DNA of 64,000 nucleotides from Ruminiclostridium josui JCM 17888 (GTDB lineage Bacteria; Bacillota; Clostridia; Acetivibrionales; DSM-1351). Position 1 is the first letter of the stretch, and each line of letters begins with the position of its first letter. The translations under genes and the position numbers were made by a program. The notes beneath the pieces were generated by a model that searched no databases, had not been told where the DNA came from, and saw nothing but the letters and a program-made list of their open reading frames with translations. The stretch lies in NCBI RefSeq assembly GCF_000526495.1, contig NZ_JAGE01000001.1:2074501-2138500 (forward strand), given 5' to 3'. Below are positions 43,168 through 60,500 of this stretch, one piece after another.

Positions 43168-45666
43168 ATGAAACGATATGCAAATAAAATATCTTTGATG
43201 CTTGCAGTAATATGTTTTATGGTTATCCCTTTGTCTGCATTTGCAGCTACGGGAGCATCATATTCTAACTACACAGGTTCATTGCTTACCAAGTGGAAAA
43301 ATAACGGTGTCTTGGATAAGAGCTACTCAAGTCTGGATTTAGACAAGCCTATTGAGAAAATTGACTTTATTAAAATGCTCAACGCAATATTGAAGTCATC
43401 AAAAAAGGCTGACATAAATTTCATAGACGTACCTAAGAATTCATGGTATGGACAGGAGATAGCAAAGGCTGTGGCATGCGGATATATTTCAGCAAAGGAA
43501 AATACTAAATTTTATCCCTTTTCTTTAATGACCAGAGTAGAGGCTGCAGAGATGTCTGCATATGTTTTTGGACTTGAACTTAAGAACGAGAAAATACTAA
43601 GTAAGATAACTGATGGTAAGGCTCTTGAAAAGAAACAGTTAAATGATTTAGCTGCGGTAATTGAAAAAGGGGGACTTACCGAGGTCGCTGCTGGAAGGTA
43701 TGCACCGACAGGAGTACTAAAGCTAAAAGATGCATTAATTATGCTGGATAAATGTGTTGGGCAGATTGCGCTTAAGTCGGGAGCCATAACTACTAATGTT
43801 GCAGGAAATTTGTTTATCAGTGCTGGAGCTGTTACCTTAAGAAATATTTCCGTTTCTGGAGATTTAATTATCGGTGAGGGTGTAGGCGACCAAGTTATTA
43901 CTCTAGAAAGCGTAAAGTTGTCAGGAAGGCTTATAGTAAGAGGTGGAGGGCCTAACAACGGAGTACTTATTAAGAATTCCCAGATAGGTGAAACTCTTAC
44001 CGTTGAAAAAAGTGAAGGTAACGTATATATAAGAGTGGTTGGAAGTACAACCATTAAGCAGGCATATTTAAAATCTGGATGTACCCTTGAGGAAGGTTAC
44101 ATGACAAGCGGCGACGGATTCGAAAATATTACCGCCATGCATGGGGCCTTTGAAAGCCAGAATGCTATACTCAAAGGTGATTTCAAAAATATATTAGCTG
44201 AAGACAGTAACTTGAATATTAAGTTAAGCGGTAACGCTGATAATGTTAGCATAACCAAAGAAAGTCAAGGAATTTTTTCTCTTTTGTCTGGAACGGTTAA
44301 GACCATTAATGCGGATGTAATTAAAAAACAAATTGAATTTTTGGGCGGAAAAGTTACGACTTTGAATATTTCAAAAGAAGCCAAAGGGAATAAAATAACC
44401 TTAGACGGCTCAGCGGAAATCAATGCTGCAAACATTGAAAGTACCACTGAAATTTTCTTTAAAAATGGAACTGTAACATCTTTAGTGTTGGATGCAAATT
44501 CCCAAGGTTCATATATAAACATGATGAGCGGTTCGTATATAGGAAACCTTATTATTATGGCAGATGCTGAAATAACTGGATATGGTAAAATTAATAGTGC
44601 ATATTCCTATGCAAACAACGTTAAAATGGGGATTACACCATCATTTTACTCATATAAGTATGTATCCGGTTGGGATCCGAATGATCCTTTCTTGCCAAGT
44701 GTTAATATTAGTGTATCGGGTGCAGCTGATGACAGTATAACTCTGCAGGAAGGGAAGTCAATTGACTTGTATAAAGACTTAGGCTTGTCTGTATCACCTG
44801 ATAAGAGTACAGTAGGATTCGTATCACTAAATAGCAGTGTTGCCACTGTAACTGATAAAGGTGTGATAACAGCAATTGCAGCCGGATTCGCTAAAATATA
44901 CATAACTGGACAGTACTCTGGCTTTACCAGTGGTATAAAACGAATAGACGTAAATGTGACACCGGGTAATATTACACTTCCGGGAAGTGTGGAAATAAGT
45001 CCTGCAACAGGTGAAGCAGCGACAGTTAAGGACTTTGAAATAACATATACTTTAAATGATGATTTTTCAAACGGTACAGTTACTTTCTGGCTGCCGGAAG
45101 GATTCCCTGCATTTGAATCTGATACAGTAAAGATAGGAAATGGTGCAGAGGTAACCTTGAATTCATCCCAGAGACTTAATGTCAGAACTCTGTCTTTTAC
45201 AAATCTTAATTTGAGCAAGGGACAGAAGATAGTTGTAAAGCTCAAGAATAAAACGGTACCTCAAGGAGGAGAATACGTATTTAGTGTTGTTGCAGATGCC
45301 GATGGAACAGGACCAAAGCTGCCGACATCAGGTCAGGATGAGCGAGTAGTATTTGCTTCAGATAAACTGAAAACACTCTTGGAGACCACAAATTACACAT
45401 TATCTGACTATGATTCCGAAACCGGAACTGTAAGCTTCACAAAACTGTCATTTGCAGGATTTACAGGGGCTACTAAATGGCTTATAGCTGTTCAAGACGA
45501 AGAATTTATACGTCCTGGCTATGATGATACAGTTTCAGGAACAGAATATACTGTAGGAAGTGCTATAACCATTGCTCCAAACCAGCATCTGATGCTGGCG
45601 GCAGTTGATGGGGATAGTACCATAGGATACAAGGTTAAGGCTTTTATTGATATTAAGGTTAACTGA
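43168..45666 (+). CDS. Cell-surface protein: SLH domains, beta-helix-like region and Big2-type domain
   Basis: An 832-aa exported protein. Signal peptide 1-27 (ends SAFAATG). SLH-type modules occupy about 35-195 (FIDVPKNSWYGQEIAKAV, PFSLMTRVEAAEMSAYVFGL). A long stretch of short beta repeats (about 200-490) includes NLFISAGAVTLRNISVSGDL and LIIGEG, resembling right-handed beta-helix or polymer-forming folds. A bacterial Ig-like (Big2) domain follows (about 510-590, SVATVTDKGVITAIAAGFAKIYI), then a ~230-residue C-terminal part I do not recognise. It is co-transcribed with the FN3-SLH gene 21 bases upstream and ends in a terminator. Function unknown; wall-anchored by SLH. Confidence 0.85.
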   Translation: MKRYANKISLMLAVICFMVIPLSAFAATGASYSNYTGSLLTKWKNNGVLDKSYSSLDLDKPIEKIDFIKMLNAILKSSKKADINFIDVPKNSWYGQEIAKAVACGYISAKENTKFYPFSLMTRVEAAEMSAYVFGLELKNEKILSKITDGKALEKKQLNDLAAVIEKGGLTEVAAGRYAPTGVLKLKDALIMLDKCVGQIALKSGAITTNVAGNLFISAGAVTLRNISVSGDLIIGEGVGDQVITLESVKLSGRLIVRGGGPNNGVLIKNSQIGETLTVEKSEGNVYIRVVGSTTIKQAYLKSGCTLEEGYMTSGDGFENITAMHGAFESQNAILKGDFKNILAEDSNLNIKLSGNADNVSITKESQGIFSLLSGTVKTINADVIKKQIEFLGGKVTTLNISKEAKGNKITLDGSAEINAANIESTTEIFFKNGTVTSLVLDANSQGSYINMMSGSYIGNLIIMADAEITGYGKINSAYSYANNVKMGITPSFYSYKYVSGWDPNDPFLPSVNISVSGAADDSITLQEGKSIDLYKDLGLSVSPDKSTVGFVSLNSSVATVTDKGVITAIAAGFAKIYITGQYSGFTSGIKRIDVNVTPGNITLPGSVEISPATGEAATVKDFEITYTLNDDFSNGTVTFWLPEGFPAFESDTVKIGNGAEVTLNSSQRLNVRTLSFTNLNLSKGQKIVVKLKNKTVPQGGEYVFSVVADADGTGPKLPTSGQDERVVFASDKLKTLLETTNYTLSDYDSETGTVSFTKLSFAGFTGATKWLIAVQDEEFIRPGYDDTVSGTEYTVGSAITIAPNQHLMLAAVDGDSTIGYKVKAFIDIKVN

Positions 45667-45701: not shown

Positions 45702-45743
45702 AAAGACCAATTCAAACAAAACGTTTGGGTTGGTCTTTTTTGA
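45702..45743 (+). terminator. Terminator after the SLH operon
   Basis: AAAGACCAA plus TTCAAAC (45702-45717) pairs with GTTTGGGTTGGTCTTT (45723-45738), followed by TTT. It ends the 40798-45666 operon just before the insertion sequence. Confidence 0.88.
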
Positions 45744-45786
45744 TGGGATTAATGGTGGGTAGTGGAAGGTATACTTTTAAGATTTT

Positions 45787-45813
45787 GACGCTGTAAATAA
45801 TTTTGTGTATGAA
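45787..45813 (+). repeat. Left terminal inverted repeat of the IS256 element
   Basis: 27 bases starting GACGCTGTAAATAATTTT, identical in reverse complement to 47326-47352. Beyond base 27 the two ends diverge. Confidence 0.95.
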
Positions 45814-45876
45814 ACATAGGAAATACTCTTTTATGGTTAAAAGAATTTAAGTATTAACCAGAGAGGAGTATTTTTT

Positions 45877-47094
45877 ATGAGTGTATTATCAAAAGAGTTA
45901 GTACAGAAAATAATTGCGGAGAATGATTTTAAAAATCCCGGAGAAATAATCTCCTTTTTAAAGGAGGTATTTAAAGATGTTCTTCAGGAAATGCTTGAAG
46001 TCGAAATGGATGTTTCTCTTGGGTATTCCCGAGATGAGTCAAGACATAAAATTACCGACAACAGTAGAAACGGTTACTCAACAAAAAAACTAAAGAGTGA
46101 ATTCGGTCCTGTACAGATTGATATTCCAAGGGACAGAAAAGGTGAATTTGAGCCTAAAATAGTTCCCAAGTACAAAAGGGATGTATCAGGAATTGAGGAT
46201 AAGGTGATTTCTCTTTATGCCCGAGGCATGTCTACCAGAGATATTCACGATCAGGTTAAAGCGCTTTATGGAATAGATATTTCTGCTGAAATGGTTAGTA
46301 AAATAACTGAAAGAATCCTTCCTGAAATAAAAGAATGGCAAGGTAGGCCCCTTGAGGCTATCTATCCTTTTGTATTTATGGATGCTATCCATTACAAGGT
46401 AAGAACTGATGGACAAATAGTAAATAGAGCTGCTTATGTTGTTATGGGTGTAGATATTTCAGGTAAGAAAGATATCCTTGGAATATGGATTGGAGAGAAC
46501 GAATCCTCCAAGTTCTGGTTAGGTGTGTTAAATGACCTTAAAAACAGAGGTATAGAAGATGTACTCATATTCTGTGTGGACGGACTTACAGGGCTCAAAG
46601 AAGCTATTGCAGCTGCTTTTCCAAAGTCAGAAATTCAAAGGTGTATAATTCATCAACTAAGAAACTCATTTAAATATGTTTCATATAAGGATTTGAAGGC
46701 TTTTTCAAAGGATTTTAAAACTGTCTACACAAGCCCCAGTGAAGAAATAGCATTAAACCGGTTTGAAGACCTGAAAAACAAATGGGGCAAGGATTATCCA
46801 TATGCATTTAAAAGTTGGGAAAACAATTGGGAAGTTTTATCACCATATTACAAGTTCCCAGAGCAGATAAGAAAAATAATATATACAACCAATATAATTG
46901 AAGGATTGCATCGGCAGTTCAGAAAAGTTACTAAGACAAAATCCGTTTTTCCTTATGATACTTCTCTTGAAAAGATGCTTTATTTGGCATCAATGAATGT
47001 AATAAAAAAATGGACTCAACGATACCGGAATTGGGATCAGGTCATGAGTCAATTAATGATTATGTACGATGGGAGACTGGATAACTATATTTAA
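45877..47094 (+). CDS. IS256-family (mutator-type) transposase
   Basis: A 405-aa DDE transposase, full length. Catalytic Asp residues are in FVFMDAIHYKVR (about 164-175) and CVDGLTGLKEAI (about 230-241). The catalytic Glu is likely in TNIIEGLHRQFRKVTK (about 340-355), with the family CIIHQLRNSFKYV segment between. The N-terminal part (1-130) is the usual helix-rich DNA-binding region with YARGMSTRDI. GAGAGGAG precedes ATG 45877. No frameshift is visible. Confidence 0.95.
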   Translation: MSVLSKELVQKIIAENDFKNPGEIISFLKEVFKDVLQEMLEVEMDVSLGYSRDESRHKITDNSRNGYSTKKLKSEFGPVQIDIPRDRKGEFEPKIVPKYKRDVSGIEDKVISLYARGMSTRDIHDQVKALYGIDISAEMVSKITERILPEIKEWQGRPLEAIYPFVFMDAIHYKVRTDGQIVNRAAYVVMGVDISGKKDILGIWIGENESSKFWLGVLNDLKNRGIEDVLIFCVDGLTGLKEAIAAAFPKSEIQRCIIHQLRNSFKYVSYKDLKAFSKDFKTVYTSPSEEIALNRFEDLKNKWGKDYPYAFKSWENNWEVLSPYYKFPEQIRKIIYTTNIIEGLHRQFRKVTKTKSVFPYDTSLEKMLYLASMNVIKKWTQRYRNWDQVMSQLMIMYDGRLDNYI

Positions 47095-47325
47095 AACATA
47101 GAGCAAAGCCCCCACCGCCCTGAAGGGCTCGTCCTCATTGCCGGACGGGCTAGACCTTCAAAATACAGGTATAAGCATAGAAATACCATTATTAAATAAT
47201 TATTGCCAGATTTAATCTAAATAATGCATAAAAATAGAATAATCTGGCAATAATTTGAGATATAACATTAAATTTTTGAGAGTTAATACTTTGGAAATAC
47301 TTAGCCATCATTGAGTTTGAAAGGC

Positions 47326-47352
47326 TTCATACACAAAATTATTTACAGCGTC
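47326..47352 (-). repeat. Right terminal inverted repeat of the IS256 element
   Basis: 27 bases ending ...ATTTACAGCGTC, the exact reverse complement of 45787-45813. Confidence 0.95.
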
Positions 47353-47374
47353 TTTAATTCAACTGTACAGGTAT

Positions 47375-47550
47375 CTATAAAGACATTGTATCCACAGCCC
47401 AATCAACCTCGACTTCTTCACCAACTTTATATTTTTGTGCATGGAGATTTTGTTGTTTAGTGTACATTATTCCTTCAGGATGCTCTTTCTTGTATTCTTT
47501 CCATAAGAACATAAGCGTGACATTCTTTTTCTTTCTGTTTGTCGGTCTTA
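47375..47550 (-). pseudogene. IS21-family transposase (IstA) remnant
   Basis: On the minus strand a frame of about 58 codons reads RPTNRKKKNVTLMFLWKEYK, then KEHPEGIMYTKQQN, then KVGEEVEVDWAVDTMSL and a stop at 47375. The first part resembles IstA from IS21-type elements (RPxRKxxTLxLLWxEY) and the second the start of its catalytic domain (xGEExxVDWAGDT). The two parts are joined without the ~25 residues that normally lie between, so this is an internally deleted fragment with no start, C-terminus or IstB. It borders the IS256 element. Confidence 0.6.
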
Positions 47551-47553
47551 TAC

Positions 47554-47727
47554 TTACTTTGAACTGCCTTTTATAAACACTAATGCAGATCCAATTGCAA
47601 CACTAATTGAAAACCACAGTACAAAACTATTTGTAAAAAAACCGATAAAAATACCGATTACTATACAGAGTGGCAGTAATAAAAAAATCATATTGTTAGT
47701 TTTTTTATTAGATATCTTTTTACTCAT
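47554..47727 (-). CDS. Small membrane protein (57 aa), function unknown
   Basis: ATG at 47725-47727 (minus) follows a clear GGGAGGATA ribosome binding site. The product begins MSKKISNKKTNN, then has two hydrophobic segments (about 13-31 and 35-51) separated by TNS, with Gly/Ile-rich helices, and ends KGSSK. Such small glycine-zipper-like membrane proteins are common in Firmicutes and have no known role. It lies between IS21 debris and the lanthipeptide locus. The strong ribosome binding site makes it likely real. Confidence 0.6.
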   Translation of the reverse strand: MSKKISNKKTNNMIFLLLPLCIVIGIFIGFFTNSFVLWFSISVAIGSALVFIKGSSK

Positions 47728-47937
47728 AAATATATCCTCCCTTTCACTTCGCTCAAGGCATAAAACATAATGAAAGTGCTTTCGAGCATAAATTTTATTT
47801 AATTAAGCAATCTCATATAAAAGCTTGGTATTCGGTCATTGCTGTATCTCAGAATAGTCTCAATCGCTAGTTGTTTTTATTAGCCTTATTTCTCAAATCA
47901 TCAAAAAAATTCTCTTTAATATTGTTAGAGTATTGCT

Positions 47938-48672
47938 TTACAATTTTGGATTTCCAATTTTTTTAATAAGCTCACTATAGCTTTCGCATTCTAAATATTT
48001 ATGTTCTTTCCAATATGTATATTCGGCACTTTTTATATTATTCTCTTCTAATAGCAGGTAGTGATTTTTTAAACTTTTAAACAAGGATTCTTGAATAGGA
48101 GTAGCAATTGTTGGTTCGTTAGAAATTAAATTACAATAAATATGTTTACTTAGTGATTCAATATCAAGGTTTCCGAAATTGATTCCAGTATCATCTGCTT
48201 TTAACGCTTTAAAGTTGGATATTACATTCACACCGCAATACTGCATAAATTTATTAAGGTATCCGTTGACGTATTCATTGCCATTGGAGTCAGAAGTTGA
48301 AATAGTAACTCCAAGTTTTCCCAATAGGCGGAAAAGGTGCATCCAATAAGTAATTCTGTCCAGAAACACTTTCATATGGCCGGATACATTGTGGGCATAA
48401 ACAGGACTTGCAAGTAATATTAAATCTGACTGAAGGATTTCATTTTTTATTGATTCCATTGCATCGGATGTATCATATGGACAAAATCCTTCAATAAAGC
48501 AACACTTACACCCTTGACAAAATTCTATCTTTACTTCATCTGCAGAATAGATTTTATACTGAATACTTCCCGAACCTAACAAAGACACTTGCTCCAATAC
48601 AATATTTGTAAGCTGCCAAGTATAGGAATGATGCCCCTGTTTACTTCCAACGTAGGCAAAGATTTTTTTCAT
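47938..48672 (-). CDS. Flavodoxin-fold NAD(P)H-dependent oxidoreductase, lanthipeptide-locus associated
   Basis: A 244-aa protein of the NADPH-dependent FMN reductase/flavodoxin fold: N-terminal KKIFAYVGSKQGHHSYTWQL phosphate loop, CQGCKCCFIEGFCPYDTSDAM (a cysteine-rich loop, about 51-71, as in iron-sulfur flavoprotein relatives) and LASPVYAHNVSGHMKVFLDR (about 85-104). It probably uses FMN. Its gene follows the exporter ATPase fragment after 10 bases on the same strand, so it belonged to that operon. It might modify the lanthipeptide by redox chemistry, but this is inference; a general reductase is equally possible. Confidence 0.75.
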   Translation of the reverse strand: MKKIFAYVGSKQGHHSYTWQLTNIVLEQVSLLGSGSIQYKIYSADEVKIEFCQGCKCCFIEGFCPYDTSDAMESIKNEILQSDLILLASPVYAHNVSGHMKVFLDRITYWMHLFRLLGKLGVTISTSDSNGNEYVNGYLNKFMQYCGVNVISNFKALKADDTGINFGNLDIESLSKHIYCNLISNEPTIATPIQESLFKSLKNHYLLLEENNIKSAEYTYWKEHKYLECESYSELIKKIGNPKL

Positions 48673-48682
48673 ATCTTCCTCC

Positions 48683-49560
48683 TTAGTAAATATTAAATTC
48701 AGTTATGTTTTTATTGGATTGTTGCCGTAATACAAAATCAAAGAATATTCCTTTGTTGTTCATTAATGAGTCATACGTTCCTTCTTCTAATATCCGACCA
48801 TTGTCCATCATGACAATTTTGTCACATTGTCGAATAGTAGAAAGCCGATGTGCTACTACTATTTTCGTACAATCCAATTTTTCCAGAGAGTGGGTTATTA
48901 TTTCCTGTGTAATATTGTCAAGGGCAGAAGTCGCTTCGTCCAAAAAAAGAATTTTAGGCTTTCTAACAATTGCTCTTGCAATTAAAATCCTTTGTTTTTG
49001 CCCACCGGAAATAGAGCCATCTCCTTCGCTTATTACCGTATACATGCCCATTGGCATACTGCGTATATCGTCTGCGATTCCTGCAATTTCAGCTGCTTCC
49101 CATGCGTCCTCCAATGTTAAATCAGGATCAAAAAATGTGATGTTTGCCAAAATACTGTCAACCAATAGCTTCCCATCCTGCAATACTGTGCCGATCTGCT
49201 TCCTGAGGCTTTTCAAGCTTATCTCATTTATATTAACTTTGTCGTATATAACCGACCCACTTTCTGGGACTTCAAATCCAAGTAAAAGTCGAAGTAAAGT
49301 GCTTTTTCCACACCCTGTAGGTCCAGTTATGGCAATATGCTGACCACTTGAAATTTTTAGTGAAAAATCTTCAATAATGTGTGGACCATGGGAATTATAT
49401 TTAAAATATACATTTTTAAGTTCTATATTTCCACATAGCTTTTTAGCGGTTTGTTTACTTTCGGATGAGTCAGGAGGTGTTGATAAAATAGGGGTTAGTA
49501 TTTCGATTGTAGAATAAAAATGTGCAAATGTAATTGATATGTCGGAAAGAGATGTAAGTG
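48683..49560 (-). pseudogene. NHLM-type bacteriocin export ABC ATPase, N-terminally truncated
   Basis: The minus frame is open up to about 49560 and encodes the end of a membrane domain (ALTSLSDISITFAHFYSTI) plus a whole nucleotide-binding domain: Walker A GPTGCGKSTLLRLLLGFE, signature ISGGQKQRILIARAI, Walker B ILFLDEATSAL and H-loop VVAHRLSTIR. The wording GMYTVISEGDGSISGGQKQR is characteristic of NHLM/NHLP-system exporters, normally 700-1000 aa. The membrane and N-terminal parts are missing, and the gene runs head-on into the LanM gene. The first in-frame ATG (49216) lies after Walker A, so no functional ATPase can be made from this frame. Confidence 0.82.
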
Positions 49561-51662
49561 CACATTTTGAAAATGTAATTGCTCATGGAGAAGATCCTGT
49601 TTTAGTGGACTTGGAAACTTTGTTTTACCCTAAAGTAAAGATTCAAAGTGCTAGAAATAAAGATAGTGGATTCCAAGCTGCAAACAGCTTTATTAACAAG
49701 TCAGTGTCCAAAATCGGATTGCTTCCTACCAGAGTGCGAATTAAAAGAGACAATAAAATTCAAAGTGTTGATGTAGGTGCATTAAGCGAAAGCAAAAATC
49801 AGAGTAGTATTCTTAAGTCACTGGTTTTAAAAAATACTCAATCAGACAATTTGTGCTTATCATATGAGTACTTATCTATAGAACAAAAGAAAAACTCTCC
49901 AAAACTTTTAGGAGAAGCACTGGATCCAAAATTGTTTATGGATGACTTAATATATGGATTTCAAGCTTTTTATAAGTTTGTACAAAATGCCAAATCAGAG
50001 ATGATTGCATACACTATGTCGCTATTTTCAGAATGTCAAATAAGAGTAATACTTAAGTCTACAGTTACATATACAAGTTTATTAAATATTGCTTCACATC
50101 CTGATTTTATGAGGCATCCAATTCACCGTGTAATATTGCTTTCTAAGATAGGTGCTAACGATTACTATAATATTTATATTAAAAGATTTGAACTTTCAGA
50201 GCTCTGCCGCAATCAAGTTCCATATTTCTATACCAGGTTTAAATCACACGATTTGAAGGGCTACCCAAATGTATGCTTTCCTAATGTTATCGAACGTAAT
50301 ACTCCAGAAATGCTTGTTGATAAGGTGTTAAATTTATCAACAAAGGATATGAAAACACAAATTAGTTTAATCAAAGATGCTTTTTTTGTTCGTGATCCGG
50401 AGGATGATATAACTGGTATTAAATTTAATTATAAACAAAACATTGAGGTTAATCCCAATGAATGGTTGACATTATCGCAGCAAATAGCTGAATATTTATG
50501 TTCACGCAGTTTTTGTGGAATTAACGATGATGGGTGGGCTGATAGAGCATACATAGGTGCTCAGACATTGATGACTGATACAGAAGAGTGGAACAAAGAT
50601 GTTGATGGTTTGGATTTATACGATGGGAATTCAGGTGTGGCACTTTTTTTCACTTATTTATGGAAAGTCAGCGGGCTGGAGAAGTATCTTAACTATGCGA
50701 TTGATACAATTCAGCCTGTAGTTCAAATTGTAAACCATAGTGACGAGATAGATTACAAAGGTGCAATAGGAGCTTATAAGGGGCTGGGTGGGTTGGCATA
50801 CTCACTTAATAAAATAGCTCTCTTGACGAAAGACTTATCCTTGTCGCATGCTGTTGAGAGTGTATTGGATTTAATTGATAAAAATATTTACCATGATATA
50901 AATTATGACTTAGTAGGTGGCGGTATTGGTTGTTTGGCAGCACTATTGTCTATATATCAAAAGCCATATAATCAAACAGTTAAAAATAGATCACTGTCTC
51001 TGGCAATTAAAGTATATGAATTCCTTAAGAATAAGTTTGTAAAAGTTGAGTACGGCAAAGTTATAAACTTGGATAAAGAGCGGATCAGTTCAGGGTTTGC
51101 CCATGGAACAGCAGGATTCTCCCCATACCTATATAAATTATATACAATTACATCAAATAACGAAATATTCGAGCTGTTTCAGAGCATTTTAGCATATGAG
51201 CGGCATATTTTTTATGCCCCAGAAATGCCTGGAGGGCACTCATCACTTAAAAAAGGTGAAATGGACAATAACTGGTGCAATGGTGTTTCCGGAATACTTT
51301 TAAGCAAACTTTTATTGAGAGAATTTGGCTATCATGATGAATTGCTCGATATGGAAATTAAATTAGCATATGACTTGACAATAAAAAATAGTTTCGGGTA
51401 TAACCTTACATACTGTCATGGAGACTTATCGGCCCTTACTATTATTAGGTATTATGCTAAAACAATGAATAATCTGCAGTTGGAATCAAAGTGTATAAAC
51501 GTGTTTCAACAATTATTTGATCGTATTAAAGATAACTGGGAATCTGAAAAGAAAACCATAAATAAGTTTAACGGTTTAATGCTCGGTGCTTCTGGATTAG
51601 GATTTGCCATGCTTAAGCAATATGACTTTGATAATGTTGATGAATTTTTATGGTTGGTTTAA
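49539..51662 (+). pseudogene. LanM lanthipeptide synthetase, N-terminally truncated (LanM1)
   Basis: The open frame from ATG 49539 gives 707 aa, but the first ~8 codons are antisense ABC sequence and LanM homology begins at HFENVIAHGEDPVLVDLETLF (49563 on). Full LanMs are about 900-1100 aa, so roughly the first 250-300 residues are gone. The catalytic Asp of the D-x-H-x-E-N dehydratase motif is replaced by Ser (SAHFEN). Dehydration is therefore almost certainly lost. The C-terminal LanC-like cyclase keeps its zinc ligands (NNWCNG, TYCHGD) and the GFAHG motif. No ribosome binding site precedes 49539. It was probably paired with the second LanM for a two-peptide product. Confidence 0.85.
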
Positions 51663-51688
51663 TAACATCTGTTAGAATGGAGAAAGTT

Positions 51689-54508
51689 ATGAAAAAAGTT
51701 GAAAATGTACTGGAAAGTAGGTATTTTGAAAATTTAGGGTCATCAAACTTAGTAGACAAAATATGCAGTAATTTATCAGCTGCTTTCGGAAATATTCACC
51801 GACCATTTTTATTATACTGTGAAAAGCATATAGAAGTTTCCCTAGACAAGTTTTCTTTAAATTATTCTATAAAAGTTGATAAAGAAGTAATAATGAGTTC
51901 AGTTCTGGCAAGTGTAGCTGAAGAAATTACAGCACTGACAATACGTATTCTGATTATAGAACTGAACTGTTTAAAATCTAATAATGAATTACAAGGAAAA
52001 GATTCTACAGAAAGGTATAATGATTTTAATCAAAAATTGTCCGATGTATCATATTTGATAGCATTTTTCAAACGTTATCCAGTTTTGCTTTATTTAATCG
52101 ATACTAAAATAACCGGCAGGCTGCAACTGGTTGATGAGTTATTAGAACGGCTTGGAGAGGATAAACAAAGTATCGAGAGTACGTTTAATATTTGTATGCA
52201 CAGTCTCACAAATGTAAATATATCTTCAGGTGATTCCCATAATAACGGGAGAAAAGTTACGATACTGCAATTTGGCGAAAGATATCTTGTATATAAACCC
52301 CATGGACTTTCACCTGAAAGTTTGTTTAACCAAATAGTTGATTATATTAATAAAAAAGCGTCATTTCACTGTAAATTGAAAAAACTCAAGTGTATAGATT
52401 GTGTTAATTATGGATGGCAGGAATTTGCTGTTTATCAGAAGGCTGAAAATAACGAGGACATTTATCGGTTCTATTACCGTACCGGAGCTCTGCTCGCAAT
52501 TTTTTACATGTTTTCATGTAGTGATCTGCACCATGAAAATATTTTGGCATGCAAGGATTCACCTGCTATTTTTGATTTAGAAACTTTGGTTAATATTTTC
52601 CAACAATCTATTGAAGGTGGAAATACTAACGCAGATATATCAAGGGAGTTCGCGTGTTCCGTTTTAGGAACTATGTTATTACCTGCAAACTTCGTCAATG
52701 GAGCTTTTGATTTTGATTTGAGCGGATTAGCTGGGTCTGATGATTCAGTTTCCAGAAAATGGTTTTATTTTCAAGTTAAAAACGCCGGAACTGATGAAAT
52801 TTGTCTGAATAAAGAACCGTGTACTTCACCCAGAATGAAGAATGCTTTAATGTACAAGGATGAAATTGTATCACCTAAATTAAATGTGTTGAGTATCCAA
52901 AATGGTTTTTTGGATTGTTATAATGTTATAGAAAATAATAGAAATGAAATTTTAGATATAATTTGCAGCAATAGGATTGTTATACGGCATGTCCTTAGAC
53001 CAACTGCTGTGTATGCAAGATTCCTTGAGGCTAGCACCCAGCCTAATTATCTTGAAAATATGGAAGCAAGGAAGGCTTTGTTTTCAAAGCTATATAATAA
53101 TAACACACAACTGGATATTGTCAAATGTGAAGTAGAAGCTTTACTTAAGCATGATGTTCCGTATTTTTCCTCAGAGATAGACAGTTGTACACTATTAGGA
53201 AATCTGGTAGAGAAGATACCAGAATATTTCCAGAAAACTGCTTATCAGGTTATTGAGGATAAGGTAAAGCAGTTCAGTAATAATGATGTCAATAAACAGT
53301 TGTATTATATAAGCCAATCTTTAAGCACATTAAAAGAGCATGTAACAAATTATTCATATAATTTTGGAATGTCTGGTCAGGACAGCTATCTTTCTAATGC
53401 CAAAAAGATTGCTGATCAAATTTACAACTTGTCTGTGGTTAATTCCGAGAAAGATGAGGCAAGTTTTCTGATGACATTGGAATTGCCTAATATGAGACGA
53501 CTTATAAGTTCTATGGATTTCAACATATATACTGGCGGGGGAATTATATTATTTCTGGCTGTTTTGGGGCAAGAGCTCAAAGAACAGAAATATACCCGTC
53601 TTGCGGAACAATTTTTAAATTACCAATTGTCAAGTGCGGAACAGCAAAAATCGTTATCCGCATATACAGGTATTGGTTCTGGTGCATATATATGCTACAA
53701 TATGTTTAAACTTACAAATCGAAGCATATACTATGAAAAGTGCCGGAGGCTGGTTACTGAAATAAATTTTGTGGATAATTGCCCCAATGATTTCGTTGGG
53801 GGTATTTCTGGATTAATTATACTATTGTTAAATATTTTTGAAAAAGAACAGGACAGCTTATTTATAGAAAAAGCAGAATGGTTGGGAAAAGAATTGTATC
53901 GGTCGCTTAGGTCTGAAAATCAGGATTTAATAACAGGACTGGCACATGGGCTTTCGGGATATGCTTGGGCACTAATCAAATTGGGTAAGTTTACAAATAA
54001 CCAAACATATATTGATTTTGGTTTGGAATTGATTAGAAAAGAAAACTCCTATTATGAACCTTCTGAATATAATTGGAGAGATTTACGTGATGACCACCAG
54101 TTTTTATCTTATTGGTGTTACGGAGCAGCAGGAATTGCTTTGTGCAGAATGAAAGTTTTGGAACTGATAAATCAGGCTGACGATGTGTTGACTAATGATT
54201 TACAGAATGGGATTGAGAGTATAAAACTTAATAAAGCTAAATCACATTCTCTTTGTCATGGATCATTTGGAAACATCGATATTCTTTTGGAGATTGGTAA
54301 ATCAAGGCATATGGACAGGTGGGTAAGTTTGGCTGAAGATATTGCGAAAGATGAATTAGCAGATATTCAGAAAAATGGAGTAAGATTTGGTGATGTGGCA
54401 TCCCTTAGTGATTTTTCATTTATGCAGGGACTTGGCGGTATCGGGTACGCCTTAGTACGATTAGCCAATCATAATTATCCATCTATTTTATCCTTGGATG
54501 TAATGTAA
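51689..54508 (+). CDS. Class II lanthipeptide synthetase LanM (LanM2), full length
   Basis: A 939-aa bifunctional enzyme that phosphorylates and dehydrates Ser/Thr and then forms (methyl)lanthionine rings. The start is ATG 51689 (GGAGA 5 bases before); ATG 51650 lies within the previous gene. The dehydratase domain (about 130-560) has SDLHHENILAC with the catalytic Asp and His, and IRHVLRPTAVYARFLEAS with the conserved Arg and Thr. The LanC-like cyclase domain (about 620-939) has zinc ligands in YWCYGAAG and LCHGSFG, plus GLAHGLSGY. All key residues are present, so it may be active. Its precursor peptide is not visible nearby. Confidence 0.92.
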   Translation: MKKVENVLESRYFENLGSSNLVDKICSNLSAAFGNIHRPFLLYCEKHIEVSLDKFSLNYSIKVDKEVIMSSVLASVAEEITALTIRILIIELNCLKSNNELQGKDSTERYNDFNQKLSDVSYLIAFFKRYPVLLYLIDTKITGRLQLVDELLERLGEDKQSIESTFNICMHSLTNVNISSGDSHNNGRKVTILQFGERYLVYKPHGLSPESLFNQIVDYINKKASFHCKLKKLKCIDCVNYGWQEFAVYQKAENNEDIYRFYYRTGALLAIFYMFSCSDLHHENILACKDSPAIFDLETLVNIFQQSIEGGNTNADISREFACSVLGTMLLPANFVNGAFDFDLSGLAGSDDSVSRKWFYFQVKNAGTDEICLNKEPCTSPRMKNALMYKDEIVSPKLNVLSIQNGFLDCYNVIENNRNEILDIICSNRIVIRHVLRPTAVYARFLEASTQPNYLENMEARKALFSKLYNNNTQLDIVKCEVEALLKHDVPYFSSEIDSCTLLGNLVEKIPEYFQKTAYQVIEDKVKQFSNNDVNKQLYYISQSLSTLKEHVTNYSYNFGMSGQDSYLSNAKKIADQIYNLSVVNSEKDEASFLMTLELPNMRRLISSMDFNIYTGGGIILFLAVLGQELKEQKYTRLAEQFLNYQLSSAEQQKSLSAYTGIGSGAYICYNMFKLTNRSIYYEKCRRLVTEINFVDNCPNDFVGGISGLIILLLNIFEKEQDSLFIEKAEWLGKELYRSLRSENQDLITGLAHGLSGYAWALIKLGKFTNNQTYIDFGLELIRKENSYYEPSEYNWRDLRDDHQFLSYWCYGAAGIALCRMKVLELINQADDVLTNDLQNGIESIKLNKAKSHSLCHGSFGNIDILLEIGKSRHMDRWVSLAEDIAKDELADIQKNGVRFGDVASLSDFSFMQGLGGIGYALVRLANHNYPSILSLDVM

Positions 54509-54641
54509 TAATTTACTTTTTGGTAAGGCTAGTAATTGTATTAAAGCAAAGAGTGGGTTACGGAACTGTTGCTCAAAATAAGATAATTGTAATAATTACA
54601 GCATTTTTAAATAACATATATAGTTGAGAAAAGGGGATATT

Positions 54642-55547
54642 ATGAGTAATATAGCTGTGAGTACTAGTAATTTGACTAAAAGTTTTAATGGACATAAATC
54701 TGTGGATAATTTAAGCTTAAGTATACCGCAAGGATGCATATATGGACTTCTGGGACCCAATGGAGCCGGAAAAACTACAACCATTCGCATGTTGCTTGGG
54801 TTAATCCGGCCGGATGGTGGAGATGTACATATATTTGGTCAGAACCTATCTTTTTATCGCGAAGCAATTTTAAAAAATGTCGGGTCATTGATTGAGACTC
54901 CGTCCTATTATGCAAATTTAAATGCATGGGAGAATCTCAAAATTATCTGTATGATGAAACAAATTAACACAGATGAAATTAATCCAATACTTGATTTAGT
55001 TGGTCTACAAAATTGTGGTAAAAAAAAGGTGGGTAAATTTTCCCTTGGTATGAAACAGCGGTTGGCCATAGCAGAGGCTCTTATTGGTGGACCTAAGCTT
55101 GTTATACTGGATGAGCCAGTCAATGGATTGGATCCTGCCGGTATACATGAAGTTAGGGAAATTATTAAATCCTTGGCTCGAAAGTCCGGAATTACTTTTT
55201 TGATTTCAAGTCATTTATTAAATGAAATGGAACTTATGGCAGATAAACTTGGAATTATAAAAGATGGTAAGCTTTTATATGAAGGAGATTTACAGAAACT
55301 GACTGATAAACAGGTAAATCGAATCACGGTAGGAGTTAGCGATCTTCGAAAAGCCGTTGATTATTTCAAGAGTGTGGGAATACAGGTTTCAATTCAGGAG
55401 AAAGATTTAATGATTGAGGGTAATTACTCTACTGAAGATATTTCGAAAAGGCTGATGGGACAGGGAATAGGTATAACTTGTATTTATAAGCAAAATGATT
55501 CCTTGGAAAATATTTATTTAAGAATGATGGATGGTCAATCAAATTAA
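54642..55547 (+). CDS. Lantibiotic immunity ABC transporter ATP-binding protein (LanF type)
   Basis: A 301-aa ATPase of the BcrA/LanF group. Walker A is GPNGAGKTTTIRMLLGL, the signature FSLGMKQRLAIAEAL, Walker B KLVILDEPVNGLDPAGI, with a C-terminal extension (about 220-301) typical of LanF. ATG 54642 is chosen because the in-frame TTG 54624 precedes the AAGGGGA ribosome binding site. With the two permeases downstream it forms a LanFEG exporter that removes lantibiotic from the producer membrane. Intact by sequence. Confidence 0.9.
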   Translation: MSNIAVSTSNLTKSFNGHKSVDNLSLSIPQGCIYGLLGPNGAGKTTTIRMLLGLIRPDGGDVHIFGQNLSFYREAILKNVGSLIETPSYYANLNAWENLKIICMMKQINTDEINPILDLVGLQNCGKKKVGKFSLGMKQRLAIAEALIGGPKLVILDEPVNGLDPAGIHEVREIIKSLARKSGITFLISSHLLNEMELMADKLGIIKDGKLLYEGDLQKLTDKQVNRITVGVSDLRKAVDYFKSVGIQVSIQEKDLMIEGNYSTEDISKRLMGQGIGITCIYKQNDSLENIYLRMMDGQSN

Positions 55548-55598
55548 CTACTAAAATACATAATTGAATATGTATAAATTTTTCGGAGGTCACTATCA

Positions 55599-56345
55599 AT
55601 GATATTAAAACTTTTACGTTCCGAGCAATTAAAGCTAAAGAGAACCGGACTTATTTTTATGACTATTTTAATACCGCTTGCGATTAATATGCTAATTACA
55701 ATAGATCTCCAATTCCGATATACGGGATATTTGCTTATACATCAACAGGAAATGAACATTTCCTGTTGGCAATTGATATTAAAAGAACAGCGTATTTTAT
55801 TTTTTCCTGCACTTCTTCCTTTTTTTGCGACATTGATTCTGACGCAGATATTTTCTGTGGAAAGAAGAAGCAACGGTTGGTCTATGATTTTAACTCAACC
55901 AATAAAGCGATACCAGTTACTTTTATCAAAATATATTATTAGTTGCAAATATATCACAATTTTAATTGTTGTTAATATTGTGACGATGGCGATTGCAGGA
56001 TTCATAACAGGTATTAAGGACCCATTTGATACAGAACTGTTTTTAAGGTGTTTTTTGATACTATTGGTATCAACCTTTGCAACGGCAGCAATTCAATTGA
56101 TTGCTATTGAGATTTTTCCATCTAAATGGATAAGCCTTTTCATTGGGCTATTTCTGGGTTTGCTTTCGCAGGATACATACATTAATAGCGTATTCGGTAA
56201 ATTTAACCCATATTCATTTTCTGATTTTAGTTATCGTTCGGATTGGAATCAAGCTGTATTTATGATACTAATTTCATGTATTTATATTATTATTGGGTTA
56301 CTAGCTTCTACATCCATATTTAAAAGAAAAAACATCTACAGATAA
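55599..56345 (+). CDS. Lantibiotic immunity ABC transporter permease (LanE/MutE type)
   Basis: A 248-aa membrane protein with six helices (about 18-36, 62-85, 108-130, 145-165, 170-190, 220-240). It begins MILKLLRSEQLKLKRTGL, a basic cytoplasmic lead typical of the MutE/EpiE permeases, and contains ERRSNGWSMILTQPIKRYQ. CGGAGG precedes the ATG. It lies between LanF and LanG in the usual order and pairs with LanG. Confidence 0.85.
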   Translation: MILKLLRSEQLKLKRTGLIFMTILIPLAINMLITIDLQFRYTGYLLIHQQEMNISCWQLILKEQRILFFPALLPFFATLILTQIFSVERRSNGWSMILTQPIKRYQLLLSKYIISCKYITILIVVNIVTMAIAGFITGIKDPFDTELFLRCFLILLVSTFATAAIQLIAIEIFPSKWISLFIGLFLGLLSQDTYINSVFGKFNPYSFSDFSYRSDWNQAVFMILISCIYIIIGLLASTSIFKRKNIYR

Positions 56346-56361
56346 TGAAAGGATACAAAAT

Positions 56362-57072
56362 ATGCTAAGAGCAGAGTTGTATAAATACTTTAGAATGCAT
56401 TTGATCTCCATAACTTTTTTTGCATCCATCATTTGGGTACTCTGTATGCTATATTTTGTGATTTCATCAAAAATAGCTGATGTTACAAATATTGGTTTAG
56501 GATTGTATGTTTTTTCTCGGTATTTGTTTTGTGCAATAGCTGTTCCGGCTTATATTATCCTGATTACCAGAGTTGCTGGAGAGATGGAGCAAAGAAATAA
56601 CAATTGGGGGCTTTTGCTGAGCATGCCGATCAAAAAGGGTACCATATACTTTGCCAAAATAATTACATTGTTGGGAATGATATTTGTTTTTTATGCTGGT
56701 TATACAACCGGCATCCTATTTATTGGAGGCATTGCAAGTAATTTTCAACTACCTGTGATGGAGATTTTACTGGAGTTGTTATTATCGTTTATATGCACCT
56801 TTTCAATACTGTCATTTTTTTATGTTTTTTCTTTAGAAAAAACTTCAATAATCATTTATCTGGGAGTGGGAGTTGTCATTTTGTTATCTGGATTTTTGGC
56901 TATACAGTCAGAAATTGTATGGATATATTGCCCCTGGTGTTATCCGACAGCAGTCACAATAGTCAATTCGCTAGGATTGACTATAAAATGTATTGGTATT
57001 AATTTTGCACTTACCTTAGCAGTAAATCTTATAGGTTTTATTCGTTTTTGTAGAAGGCAATGGACTGCTTAA
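56362..57072 (+). CDS. Lantibiotic immunity ABC transporter permease (LanG/MutG type)
   Basis: A 236-aa membrane protein with six helices and the N-terminus MLRAELYKYFRMHLISITFF. The segment MEQRNNNWGLLLSMPIKKGTIYFAKI parallels the ERRSNGWSMILTQ segment of LanE, the expected homology between the two permeases. AAAGGATA precedes ATG 56362; the gene starts 16 bases after LanE. It completes the LanFEG set. The small ORF at 57105 follows. Confidence 0.85.
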   Translation: MLRAELYKYFRMHLISITFFASIIWVLCMLYFVISSKIADVTNIGLGLYVFSRYLFCAIAVPAYIILITRVAGEMEQRNNNWGLLLSMPIKKGTIYFAKIITLLGMIFVFYAGYTTGILFIGGIASNFQLPVMEILLELLLSFICTFSILSFFYVFSLEKTSIIIYLGVGVVILLSGFLAIQSEIVWIYCPWCYPTAVTIVNSLGLTIKCIGINFALTLAVNLIGFIRFCRRQWTA

Positions 57073-57104
57073 TAGGTGAGCATATCTGTATTCTCCAATA
57101 GTTA

Positions 57105-57272
57105 ATGAGAGTAATAAGAATTTTAAAGATTGCACTTTATATTATTGGCTTTGTATTTGTAACTATTATAGAGCTCCTTCGACCTGTTAAATACTTTGAG
57201 CCAAATAAAGGTAAGTTTGGTAGTAAAGTAACTCTTTACAAGACATTGGTAGATAGCTCAGGCGATATGTGA
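57105..57272 (+). CDS. Possible small membrane protein (55 aa)
   Basis: Starts at ATG 57105 and codes for a basic N-terminus (MRVIRILK), one membrane helix (IALYIIGFVFVTIIELL, about 9-25) and a soluble tail ending DSSGDM. No good ribosome binding site is visible, so it could be translated from the LanG message only weakly, or be the end of a lost gene. It contains no Cys and is not a lanthipeptide precursor. Function unknown. Confidence 0.3.
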   Translation: MRVIRILKIALYIIGFVFVTIIELLRPVKYFEPNKGKFGSKVTLYKTLVDSSGDM

Positions 57273-57373
57273 TACATATAACAGTTATTTTTTTAGTGTA
57301 ATTATTACATGTTGTATTTATTTTATCGGAGGTCAAAGTAAATCGTATAAAAAGTAAGATTTAATAACTATCC

Positions 57374-57425
57374 ATAAAAAAAGAAGCACAACCTGCCACC
57401 CGGCATGTTGTGCTTCTTTTTTTAC
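57374..57425 (+). terminator. Strong terminator after the lanthipeptide locus
   Basis: AAAAAAAGAAGCACAAC (57376-57392) pairs with GTTGTGCTTCTTTTTTT (57407-57423) in a perfect stem of about 16 bp that reads as a terminator in both directions. The sequence 57273-57373 between the small ORF and this site holds no gene I can support. Confidence 0.9.
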
Positions 57426-57524: not shown

Positions 57525-60500
57525 ATGAAGATTAAATTAAGATTTGTTTCAGCTATACTTGTATTAAGTCTGATATTATCGAACTTTACGGGACTAATAC
57601 AACCTGTTTATGCAGCTCCGGATGTTCTTAATTTTTCCATAGATCATAGTACATTTAATGAAAATGCAGGAACGGTTAAAGCAAGCTGGAATGGACAGCT
57701 AAATGTAACGGGAACAATAACATATGAGGCACCCGCTGCTTCAGGGCACAAGACGGTAACCATAAATGTAAGTGAAGGAATGGGTTCGGTTCTGCTTACA
57801 GATATCAAAAAGGATTATATATATGATATAAACGTTTCATTATCAAATCCATCGACTGCTTATACAGCAGAAAAGTTTTATCTTGCAGGTGTATCTGTAT
57901 ATGCTGAGCAGATTAGACAGCAATATGTTGACCATCCCGGAGGGGGAAGGGAGACGGGGGTATATCCAGCTATAAAACTATCTTGGAAGCTTCCACAAAT
58001 ATATGACGGAACAGGTGCATTTGTTCCTGCTAAAGGTACCATACTCAGCAAAATAGCTCCTGCAATCGACAGGATAAACTATAAATTCCATATGGAGACA
58101 AGCAAGACAAAACCAACTCTCGCAGATGTAATAGTAAATATGAAAAATGATGGCAGCGGATACACTGCTATGGTGTCTGGAGATACAACAAGGGTTTCCG
58201 ATGTAAAATGGGATAATGCACAAGGTGAATATTCCTTGTATCTGTTTGGTGTAAAAGACGATGAAACACCAATTCCGACAATACAGCAGATAAAGGATGG
58301 AACAGCAACAATTCCTACAGGAATTCCTGTTGCTGATGTAAATTATGTACTTCCTCATCAGGAAATACGTCCAGGATGTATTTATGTTGTAACTATGGAT
58401 ACACTGGTATGCGACGTGAATGGACAATACGTTTCAAAAGCACTGTCAGGTGCTACCACAAGTCCATTGACGGGGGTTGTAAATTATACTTATACTCCTG
58501 TTAGGTTCCAGTTAACCAAAGACTCCATGGACAATATATTAATCAGAATAAACACAGTGAACCTTGGAGATGTTTCTATGCCTGAACTGAGCTACTTTGT
58601 TCAGACAAGTAATGTTGATTCTGATGATGATAGCGACTGGAAAAATATAAAAGAAATTACAAATGTTACAGGTGAATATACTATAACTAATCTTCAGGGA
58701 ATCAACCCTAGAAATACAGTATATTACAGAATTGTAGTAAGGTCTGCATCGGTAAACGATAGGATTATGTCCTTGGCTATGCCTTACAGGATGTTAGATG
58801 ATACCTCTAAGACGCCTGTACCTAAAAATGTGTCAGTGATAGGAGTAAATCTGTCGGATGCAATACCAGGTGATACAGAAAGGACTTCTGACATTAAAAT
58901 AATCTGGGATAAGCCGGCTAACTGGGAAGATACAAAAGATGATGACATATACTACCATTTCCTGTTGAGTACAGGTCAGAAGGATCTTGACCCTGCTGTG
59001 AAATATCCGCTTACAGCAAATGGAAAGGACTATGGAACAGGCAGCTATTCGGTTAAATACAGATTGGTTCAATATGTAAGCACAAAGTCTGGTTTGATAA
59101 AAGAAAATGCAAATGACAATACAAAACTAGAATATACAATAAAGGGTTTGGATCTCTTTAAGGGTTTTGAGGGAGACGGCACAGTTTCAGCTATTACTAA
59201 CCCGGATGCTTACCCTGAATTTCTATTGCCTAACAAAACATATTATTTGCAGGTTTATACCACACTGCCGGTTGATAAGGGCAATACAACCGATAGCTCT
59301 AAGATGTCAGAAAAATCATTAACAACAAGCTTTACAACTCTTTCCCTGACAAGCAGGGATGTACCTACTCCTAACAATTTTCAATTGGTTAGTACAAAAG
59401 TAAATCCTGCAACGGAAACAACACCTGCAAATGCGGTTATAACATTGAGATTTGAAGATCTTAAAATTGACTGGAGCAAATATACAAGCAACCATAGTGC
59501 TACCGACGATGCTGTAATATATGATCTCTATATGAGTAAGCAGCCTGACCTTAGCACATTCAAACTTATAGGTTCCAGTAATCAGGCTGACAGTGATGTT
59601 GAATTTAAACCAGTTATATCCGGTAATACAACATGGATAAATATGGTTATAAATAAATTTAGTGATATGGATAATATCAATTCATTTGGATACTCTTTAT
59701 CGCCGAATACAATATATTACTTTATGATAAAGGTAAGATTGAATCTTGAAAATGAGAATCCAAAGGAAAGGGAATCCACACAGACCAGTTTACTTTCAGT
59801 GACAACTCCAAGGGGTGAGCCTACAAAGCCCGATGATAATGCAAAGAAACCAGTGGCTCCATCTGATTTTGCCATAGCTTTGGATAAAAACGGGAACCCA
59901 ATGGTTACGGGACATTCCGTTACATTTGAGTGGACTGTAAAGGAAAATGAGGCGTCATACAACCTCATTTCAACAGCTAAAAAGGTTGCACTTGATACAC
60001 CTGATACAGATCCATCTATATTGGAGGATCCTACGTATATCAGTTATATATCTGTGTTTGGTGATAAAGACGGAAATATAGACGGCAATTCACAAAAGCT
60101 GACTCTTGACCCAAAGGCATCACCACTTCCGCCTAATCTGGTATACGACAGTAAGACAAAGAAATGCAGATATACTATAAATACATGGTTATATCCAAAC
60201 AGGGTTTACTATTTCAGTTTGAGGTCTGAGGTAGTGGAGGCAAATAAATCAAAGTCCAGTGTATGGATATCCATACCTGTAACAACATCATTAATAGAAA
60301 GCCCAACTATGCTTCAGACTATAAGTGACTGTGAACTAAGCTTTTACTGGTTTGATACTAATCCTCAAACAACAGCAGACAGCTACAGTATAAAGATAAA
60401 AGCTGCCAATGACAAAAACTATACTCAGCTTACAAAAGCACAGTACAACATAGTAAAAGATGGTAGTGTGTATTATGGAAGAATTTACAAACTTAAGTCC

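Follow-up and report, generated by a model that had tools for sequence, protein, structure and literature searches.

A head-to-head junction of truncated exporter and LanM genes in a class II lanthipeptide cluster of Ruminiclostridium josui

A variable island carries the lanthipeptide genes

The window, by which we mean the whole 64,000-nucleotide stretch analysed, corresponds to positions 2074501-2138500 of contig 1 of a nearly closed 4.47-Mb genome (two contigs, 100% complete). Within the window, an 11.7-kb island with approximate edges (left, 45711-45763; right, 57376-57416) is flanked by two conserved surface-protein genes, at 43168-45666 (832 aa) and at 57525-62417 (1630 aa), the latter of which is 89-94% identical to its counterparts in four close relatives. 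Between these two genes, genome G002 has 71 bp, G005 and G007 have 2.1 and 2.7 kb that include YD-repeat (Rhs-like) fragments (identified by eye in the translations), and G009 has an unrelated 16.9-kb biosynthetic operon. These different inserts in close relatives mark the site as a locus with variable cargo and show the lan cluster to be horizontally variable. No target-site duplication is visible around the IS256-family element at the left of the island, the flanks AAGATTTT and TTTAATTC being different, and the left edge also carries an IS21-like transposase fragment (by eye, from the translation), indicating that the island has been reworked at this edge too.

Table 1. Features of the island (positions in the window)
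Feature	Position	Strand	Basis
Variable island with decayed lanthipeptide cluster	45747-57400		blastn against four close relatives
IS256-family element	45787-47352	+	transposase 45877-47094, NF033543 E 3.6e-130; perfect 23-bp terminal inverted repeats
NADPH-dependent FMN reductase-like protein	47938-48672	-	PF03358 E 6.6e-16
Truncated NHLP-type exporter, NHLM_micro_ABC2, C-terminal ~40%	48683-49561	-	TIGR03797, alignment, frame
Breakpoint	49559-49563		exporter homology stops and LanM homology starts (alignments on both sides)
Truncated LanM1: dehydratase from within D-x-H-x-E-N, complete LanC-like cyclase	49562-51662	+	PF13575, PF05147, TIGR03897
LanM2, full length, dehydratase and cyclase motifs intact	51650-54508	+	TIGR03897 2-931/932, 722 bits
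LanF-like immunity ABC ATPase	54624-55547	+	TIGR03740 260.9 bits, under the 309.75 cut-off
LanE/LanG-like ABC-2 permeases, two genes (55599-56345, 56362-57072)	55599-57072	+	PF12730; weak MutE/MutG matches

The genes for LanM2, the flavin reductase and the LanF-, LanE- and LanG-like proteins all appear whole. LanM2, which likely starts at the ATG at 51689 behind GGAG, contains the motifs GDSHNNG, YKP, DLHHEN, DLET, WCYG and LCHG, and the LanF-like ATPase is 37-39% identical to LanF of related clusters. In each of five further genomes (G604, G239, G219, G007 and G423), a homologue of the flavin reductase comes directly behind LanM, and the gene may therefore encode a candidate flavin-dependent LanJ reductase of the LanJB type. 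It shares with the LanJB reductases CrnJ and BsjJB (PMC10373908, PMC11519912) the position of a flavin-reductase-like gene adjoining LanM, seen in several genomes, and is placed with them as a candidate by Pfam FMN_red and gene context. The precursor gene that a complete class II cluster would have near its LanM was found neither in the gaps of the island, where no open reading frame of at least 20 aa is suitable and none is Cys-containing and precursor-like, nor by a search for NHLP leader peptides in the whole genome, in which the best match (E 0.89) falls below the cut-off.

The exporter and LanM1 are truncated at one common point

The minus-strand frame covers the last part of the transmembrane region and a complete nucleotide-binding (ATPase) domain of an exporter, the latter also recognised by Pfam. 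In the genome-wide search, the frame matches TIGR03797 over profile positions 400-685 of 686, with 408-411 bits, whereas a functional exporter would match over its full length with more than 709 bits. In an alignment with sixteen full-length relatives, the exporter homology reaches the Ala codon at 49559-49561; the minus frame at the breakpoint reads ...KCALTSLSDISITFAHFYSTIEILTPIL, and its counterpart in the relatives is GAFSALSGIAISIAQIPPVLEIADPIL. The fragment is open through about 290 codons, and no ATG, GTG or TTG codon is present from the upstream stop (49585) down to 49216, inside the ATPase domain. The initial annotation, which had called the gene a lanthipeptide exporter and had noted that the frame keeps the end of its membrane domain, was right about the exporter and about the domain, and the type can be specified further: identity is mostly 50-59% to clostridial NHLM_micro_ABC2 proteins but only 37-45% to LanT exporters from related LanM clusters. 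By its sequence, the fragment is thus assigned to the peptidase-less NHLP type.

The NHLP export system comprises three export proteins (TIGR03794, TIGR03796 and TIGR03797), and export genes of this system adjoining LanM have already been described in Nostoc PCC 7120 (Haft et al. 2010, PMC2887384). The locus here shares with this system an exporter of the TIGR03797 type, but differs from it in that one of the three proteins remains, as its C-terminal 40% only, in that HlyD and ABC1 are absent beside the fragment, and in that the genome has no NHLP leader peptide above the cut-off. In the NHLP loci inspected, the peptidase-bearing ABC1 normally lies immediately upstream of ABC2.

The plus-strand frame encodes the remainder of LanM1, which matches PF13575 (DUF4135) over positions 154-377 of 378, PF05147 over 2-347 of 350, and TIGR03897 over 245-930 of 932. 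Compared with eight intact relatives, LanM1 is missing 325-350 N-terminal residues, and its homology opens at S-A-H-F-E-N, where the relatives have D-x-H-x-E-N. The initial annotation had likewise placed the start of LanM1 inside this motif, with Ser in the position of the catalytic Asp. The alignment bears this out, and the Ser codon (49557-49559) comes from the exporter sequence, translated here in frame with LanM, so that a point substitution of Asp is ruled out. The remaining LanM1 frame is open through about 690 codons. The mechanical open reading frame (49539-51662, 707 codons) starts at an ATG at 49539 that is itself located in exporter DNA, and no recognisable ribosome-binding site precedes this ATG.

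Judged from the alignments, the retained part of LanM1 is without residues that are key to dehydration catalysis. Specifically, the region that would carry the P-loop Asp and His (Asp252 and His254 of CylM) and Lys274 is absent, and in the D-x-H-x-E-N motif (Asp347, His349 and Asn352 of CylM) the Asp is lost while the His and Asn are retained. In CylM, dehydration requires these two P-loop residues as well as the Lys and the catalytic Asp, and the D347A substitution left the substrate unmodified (PMC4550811). The LanC domain retains its Cys-Cys-His zinc ligands (WCNG, YCHG and GFAHG). The uninterrupted 707-codon frame, the complete cyclase domain with its zinc ligands and the position directly upstream of LanM2 would suit a functional LanM1, translated from the ATG at 49539 and acting by itself as a LanC-like cyclase alongside LanM2. 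We consider this very improbable, since the ATG has no recognisable ribosome-binding site and the promoter region is gone, the island has no precursor, and a leftover part of the kinase-like domain stands in front, which makes folding unlikely. We give still less credence to the idea that LanM1 represents a split arrangement of a new kind, in which a LanC-only cyclase, with part of a kinase-like domain, partners LanM2 on a precursor encoded elsewhere; if it were true, the scar would be an evolved architecture and not decay.

The junction is real

The homologies of the exporter and LanM1 meet within about 5 bp, and the alignments on either side agree that the N-termini of both genes are missing from one common point, as the initial annotation had proposed. 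The junction sequence occurs once in the genome. An assembly artefact, in which 49560 would be a false join of non-adjacent DNA and the cell would contain full-length genes, could account for so sharp a breakpoint, placed inside two conserved motifs, and for the finding of the exact junction in no other genome. An artefact is nevertheless improbable, since the genome is essentially closed, the missing N-termini are nowhere in the assembly, where a mis-join would normally leave them, and the exporter and LanM1 fragments share one biosynthetic context. We regard the junction at 49559-49563 as real.

The lost parts are absent from the genome

To locate the lost parts, we searched the complete two-contig genome with two profiles, one made from eight LanM N-termini and the other from eight exporter N-termini. 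The LanM profile matches LanM2, one further and unrelated LanM-like gene, and nothing else, and the exporter profile matches only complete, different exporters. A reciprocal junction, proposed in the initial annotation as something to look for elsewhere in the genome, is likewise absent from searches with LanM2, the exporter C-terminus and both N-terminus profiles, and an inverted LanM N-terminus, which an inversion would predict to the left of the flavin-reductase gene, is not there. The unrelated LanM-like gene (C1:3187099-3189276, 725 aa) was considered as the other half of LanM1 and rejected as the reciprocal product, because it overlaps the part that LanM1 retains, encodes a cyclase domain of its own and is represented by full-length orthologues in two further genomes.

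An intact version of the cluster was sought in overlapping sets of 60 relatives, 58 genomes from the order, 391 from the class and 398 from the phylum. None was found among the relatives searched, the best LanM1 homologues being about 31-33% identical; a scan of genome contigs for an intact cluster gave distant matches only, and no LanM1 match in plasmid records exceeds 33%. Comparison with intact relatives, which the initial annotation had envisaged, thus yields related clusters only, and in every related LanM cluster inspected LanM and the exporter are co-directional. One of these likenesses is a two-LanM class II cluster in G318 (LanM1-LanF-permease-LanM2-LanT), which has two LanM genes, a LanF-type immunity ATPase and permeases in common with the cluster here; the LanM2 proteins are 31-32% identical. 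In contrast to G318, LanM1 and the exporter here have both lost their N-termini and meet head to head, the exporter is of the NHLP type instead of LanT, and the precursor gene is gone.

Broken LanM genes are also present in other genomes. The LanM of G036 is interrupted by a stop. G007 carries two near-identical loci of LanM and flavin reductase, 224 kb apart (L058:7884-10941 and L059:7020-10076), with one LanM split into two frames (170 + 854 aa) and the other whole (1018 aa). A LanM-like gene of G026 (649 aa, L057:8124-10073) encodes the dehydratase part without a cyclase domain. Within this order, cluster decay is thus nothing unusual.

A single deletion probably produced the junction

On the evidence above, we regard the site as probably the scar left by a deletion within a class II lanthipeptide cluster, itself carried by a variable island. 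In the ancestral state, a minus-strand operon, probably with the NHLP exporter genes ABC1-ABC2 followed by the flavin reductase, would have stood back to back with a plus-strand operon of LanM1, LanM2 and LanFEG, and the precursor gene or genes and the promoters would have lain between or beside the divergent operons. A single deletion would then have run from inside the exporter permease domain to inside the kinase-like active site of LanM1. The precursor gene or genes and the promoters would have been lost with it, and so, probably, would ABC1, the partner exporter. As ABC1 normally lies just upstream of ABC2 and is absent here, its loss suggests a deleted piece of several kilobases. Since both remaining frames are uninterrupted, we infer that the loss was fairly recent.

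The initial annotation had invoked an inversion or deletion-inversion. The two courses differ in what they leave behind: an inversion leaves a reciprocal joint with both missing N-termini, whereas a deletion across divergent 5' ends does not. Because neither N-terminus is in the genome, a deletion is needed in any case, and it is sufficient; an inversion is neither required nor, given the absent reciprocal junction, supported. An exporter and a LanM1 that originally lay on the same strand could still have been inverted with breakpoints inside both genes, the reciprocal joint being deleted later, with the IS256 copy on the left of the island as one possible agent. The co-directional genes of all related clusters examined fit this course, and they leave the divergent ancestral order, like the content of the lost DNA, as our own reconstruction; the reworked left edge, where there is an IS21-like fragment and where the IS256 element shows no target-site duplication, fits it too. 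Such an inversion nonetheless requires at least two events, and neither N-terminus can be traced anywhere in the genome; we consider it unlikely.

The initial annotation had further suggested that an 11-bp direct repeat helped the rearrangement. The repeat, AAATGTAATTG, is indeed present at 49526-49536 and 49571-49581, on both sides of the junction. Its proposed role is rejected, since both copies, 45 bp apart, lie in retained sequence, where slippage or recombination would leave one, and equally long direct repeats occur in about 1% of the 120-bp stretches of the window. The repeat is therefore no evidence of mechanism.

The cluster formerly made a modified peptide, probably an antibiotic. 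The cluster now looks dead, with the peptide presumably no longer made, because a start codon is missing from the exporter, key dehydration residues are missing from LanM1 and the precursor open reading frame is gone. The biology of the junction amounts to the ordinary decay of a gene island that is horizontally variable, not a new kind of system. As a deletion scar, the site would be a clean example of RiPP cluster death, in which one event removes the N-termini of the transport and modification proteins and the presumed precursor region while leaving the immunity genes, LanM2 and the tailoring gene in place. It also carries a warning for cluster-mining pipelines, in which the locus would still be called an intact two-LanM cluster.

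A family of LanM-like proteins

The LanM-like gene met in the profile search belongs to a family of proteins of about 725 aa that is more interesting, as a by-product, than the junction itself. Members are encoded in this genome (C1:3187099-3189276; L054:10100-12277), in G004 (L051:4152-6338) and in G036 (L055:8285-10462), with 47-49% identity among the three. They lack GDxH, YKP, DxHxEN and the cyclase zinc ligands, and the family is apparently a maintained, catalytically dead LanM pseudoenzyme, possibly a peptide-binding regulator or an immunity or chaperone protein. The genes adjoin histidine-kinase/LytTR genes and, in two of the three genomes (G004 and G036), AgrB too. The member in G004 lies about 12 kb from a LanM/LanT cluster that looks catalytically intact, and a second IS256 transposase copy, 98.5% identical to that of the island, lies near the member in this genome (L054:16768-18057).
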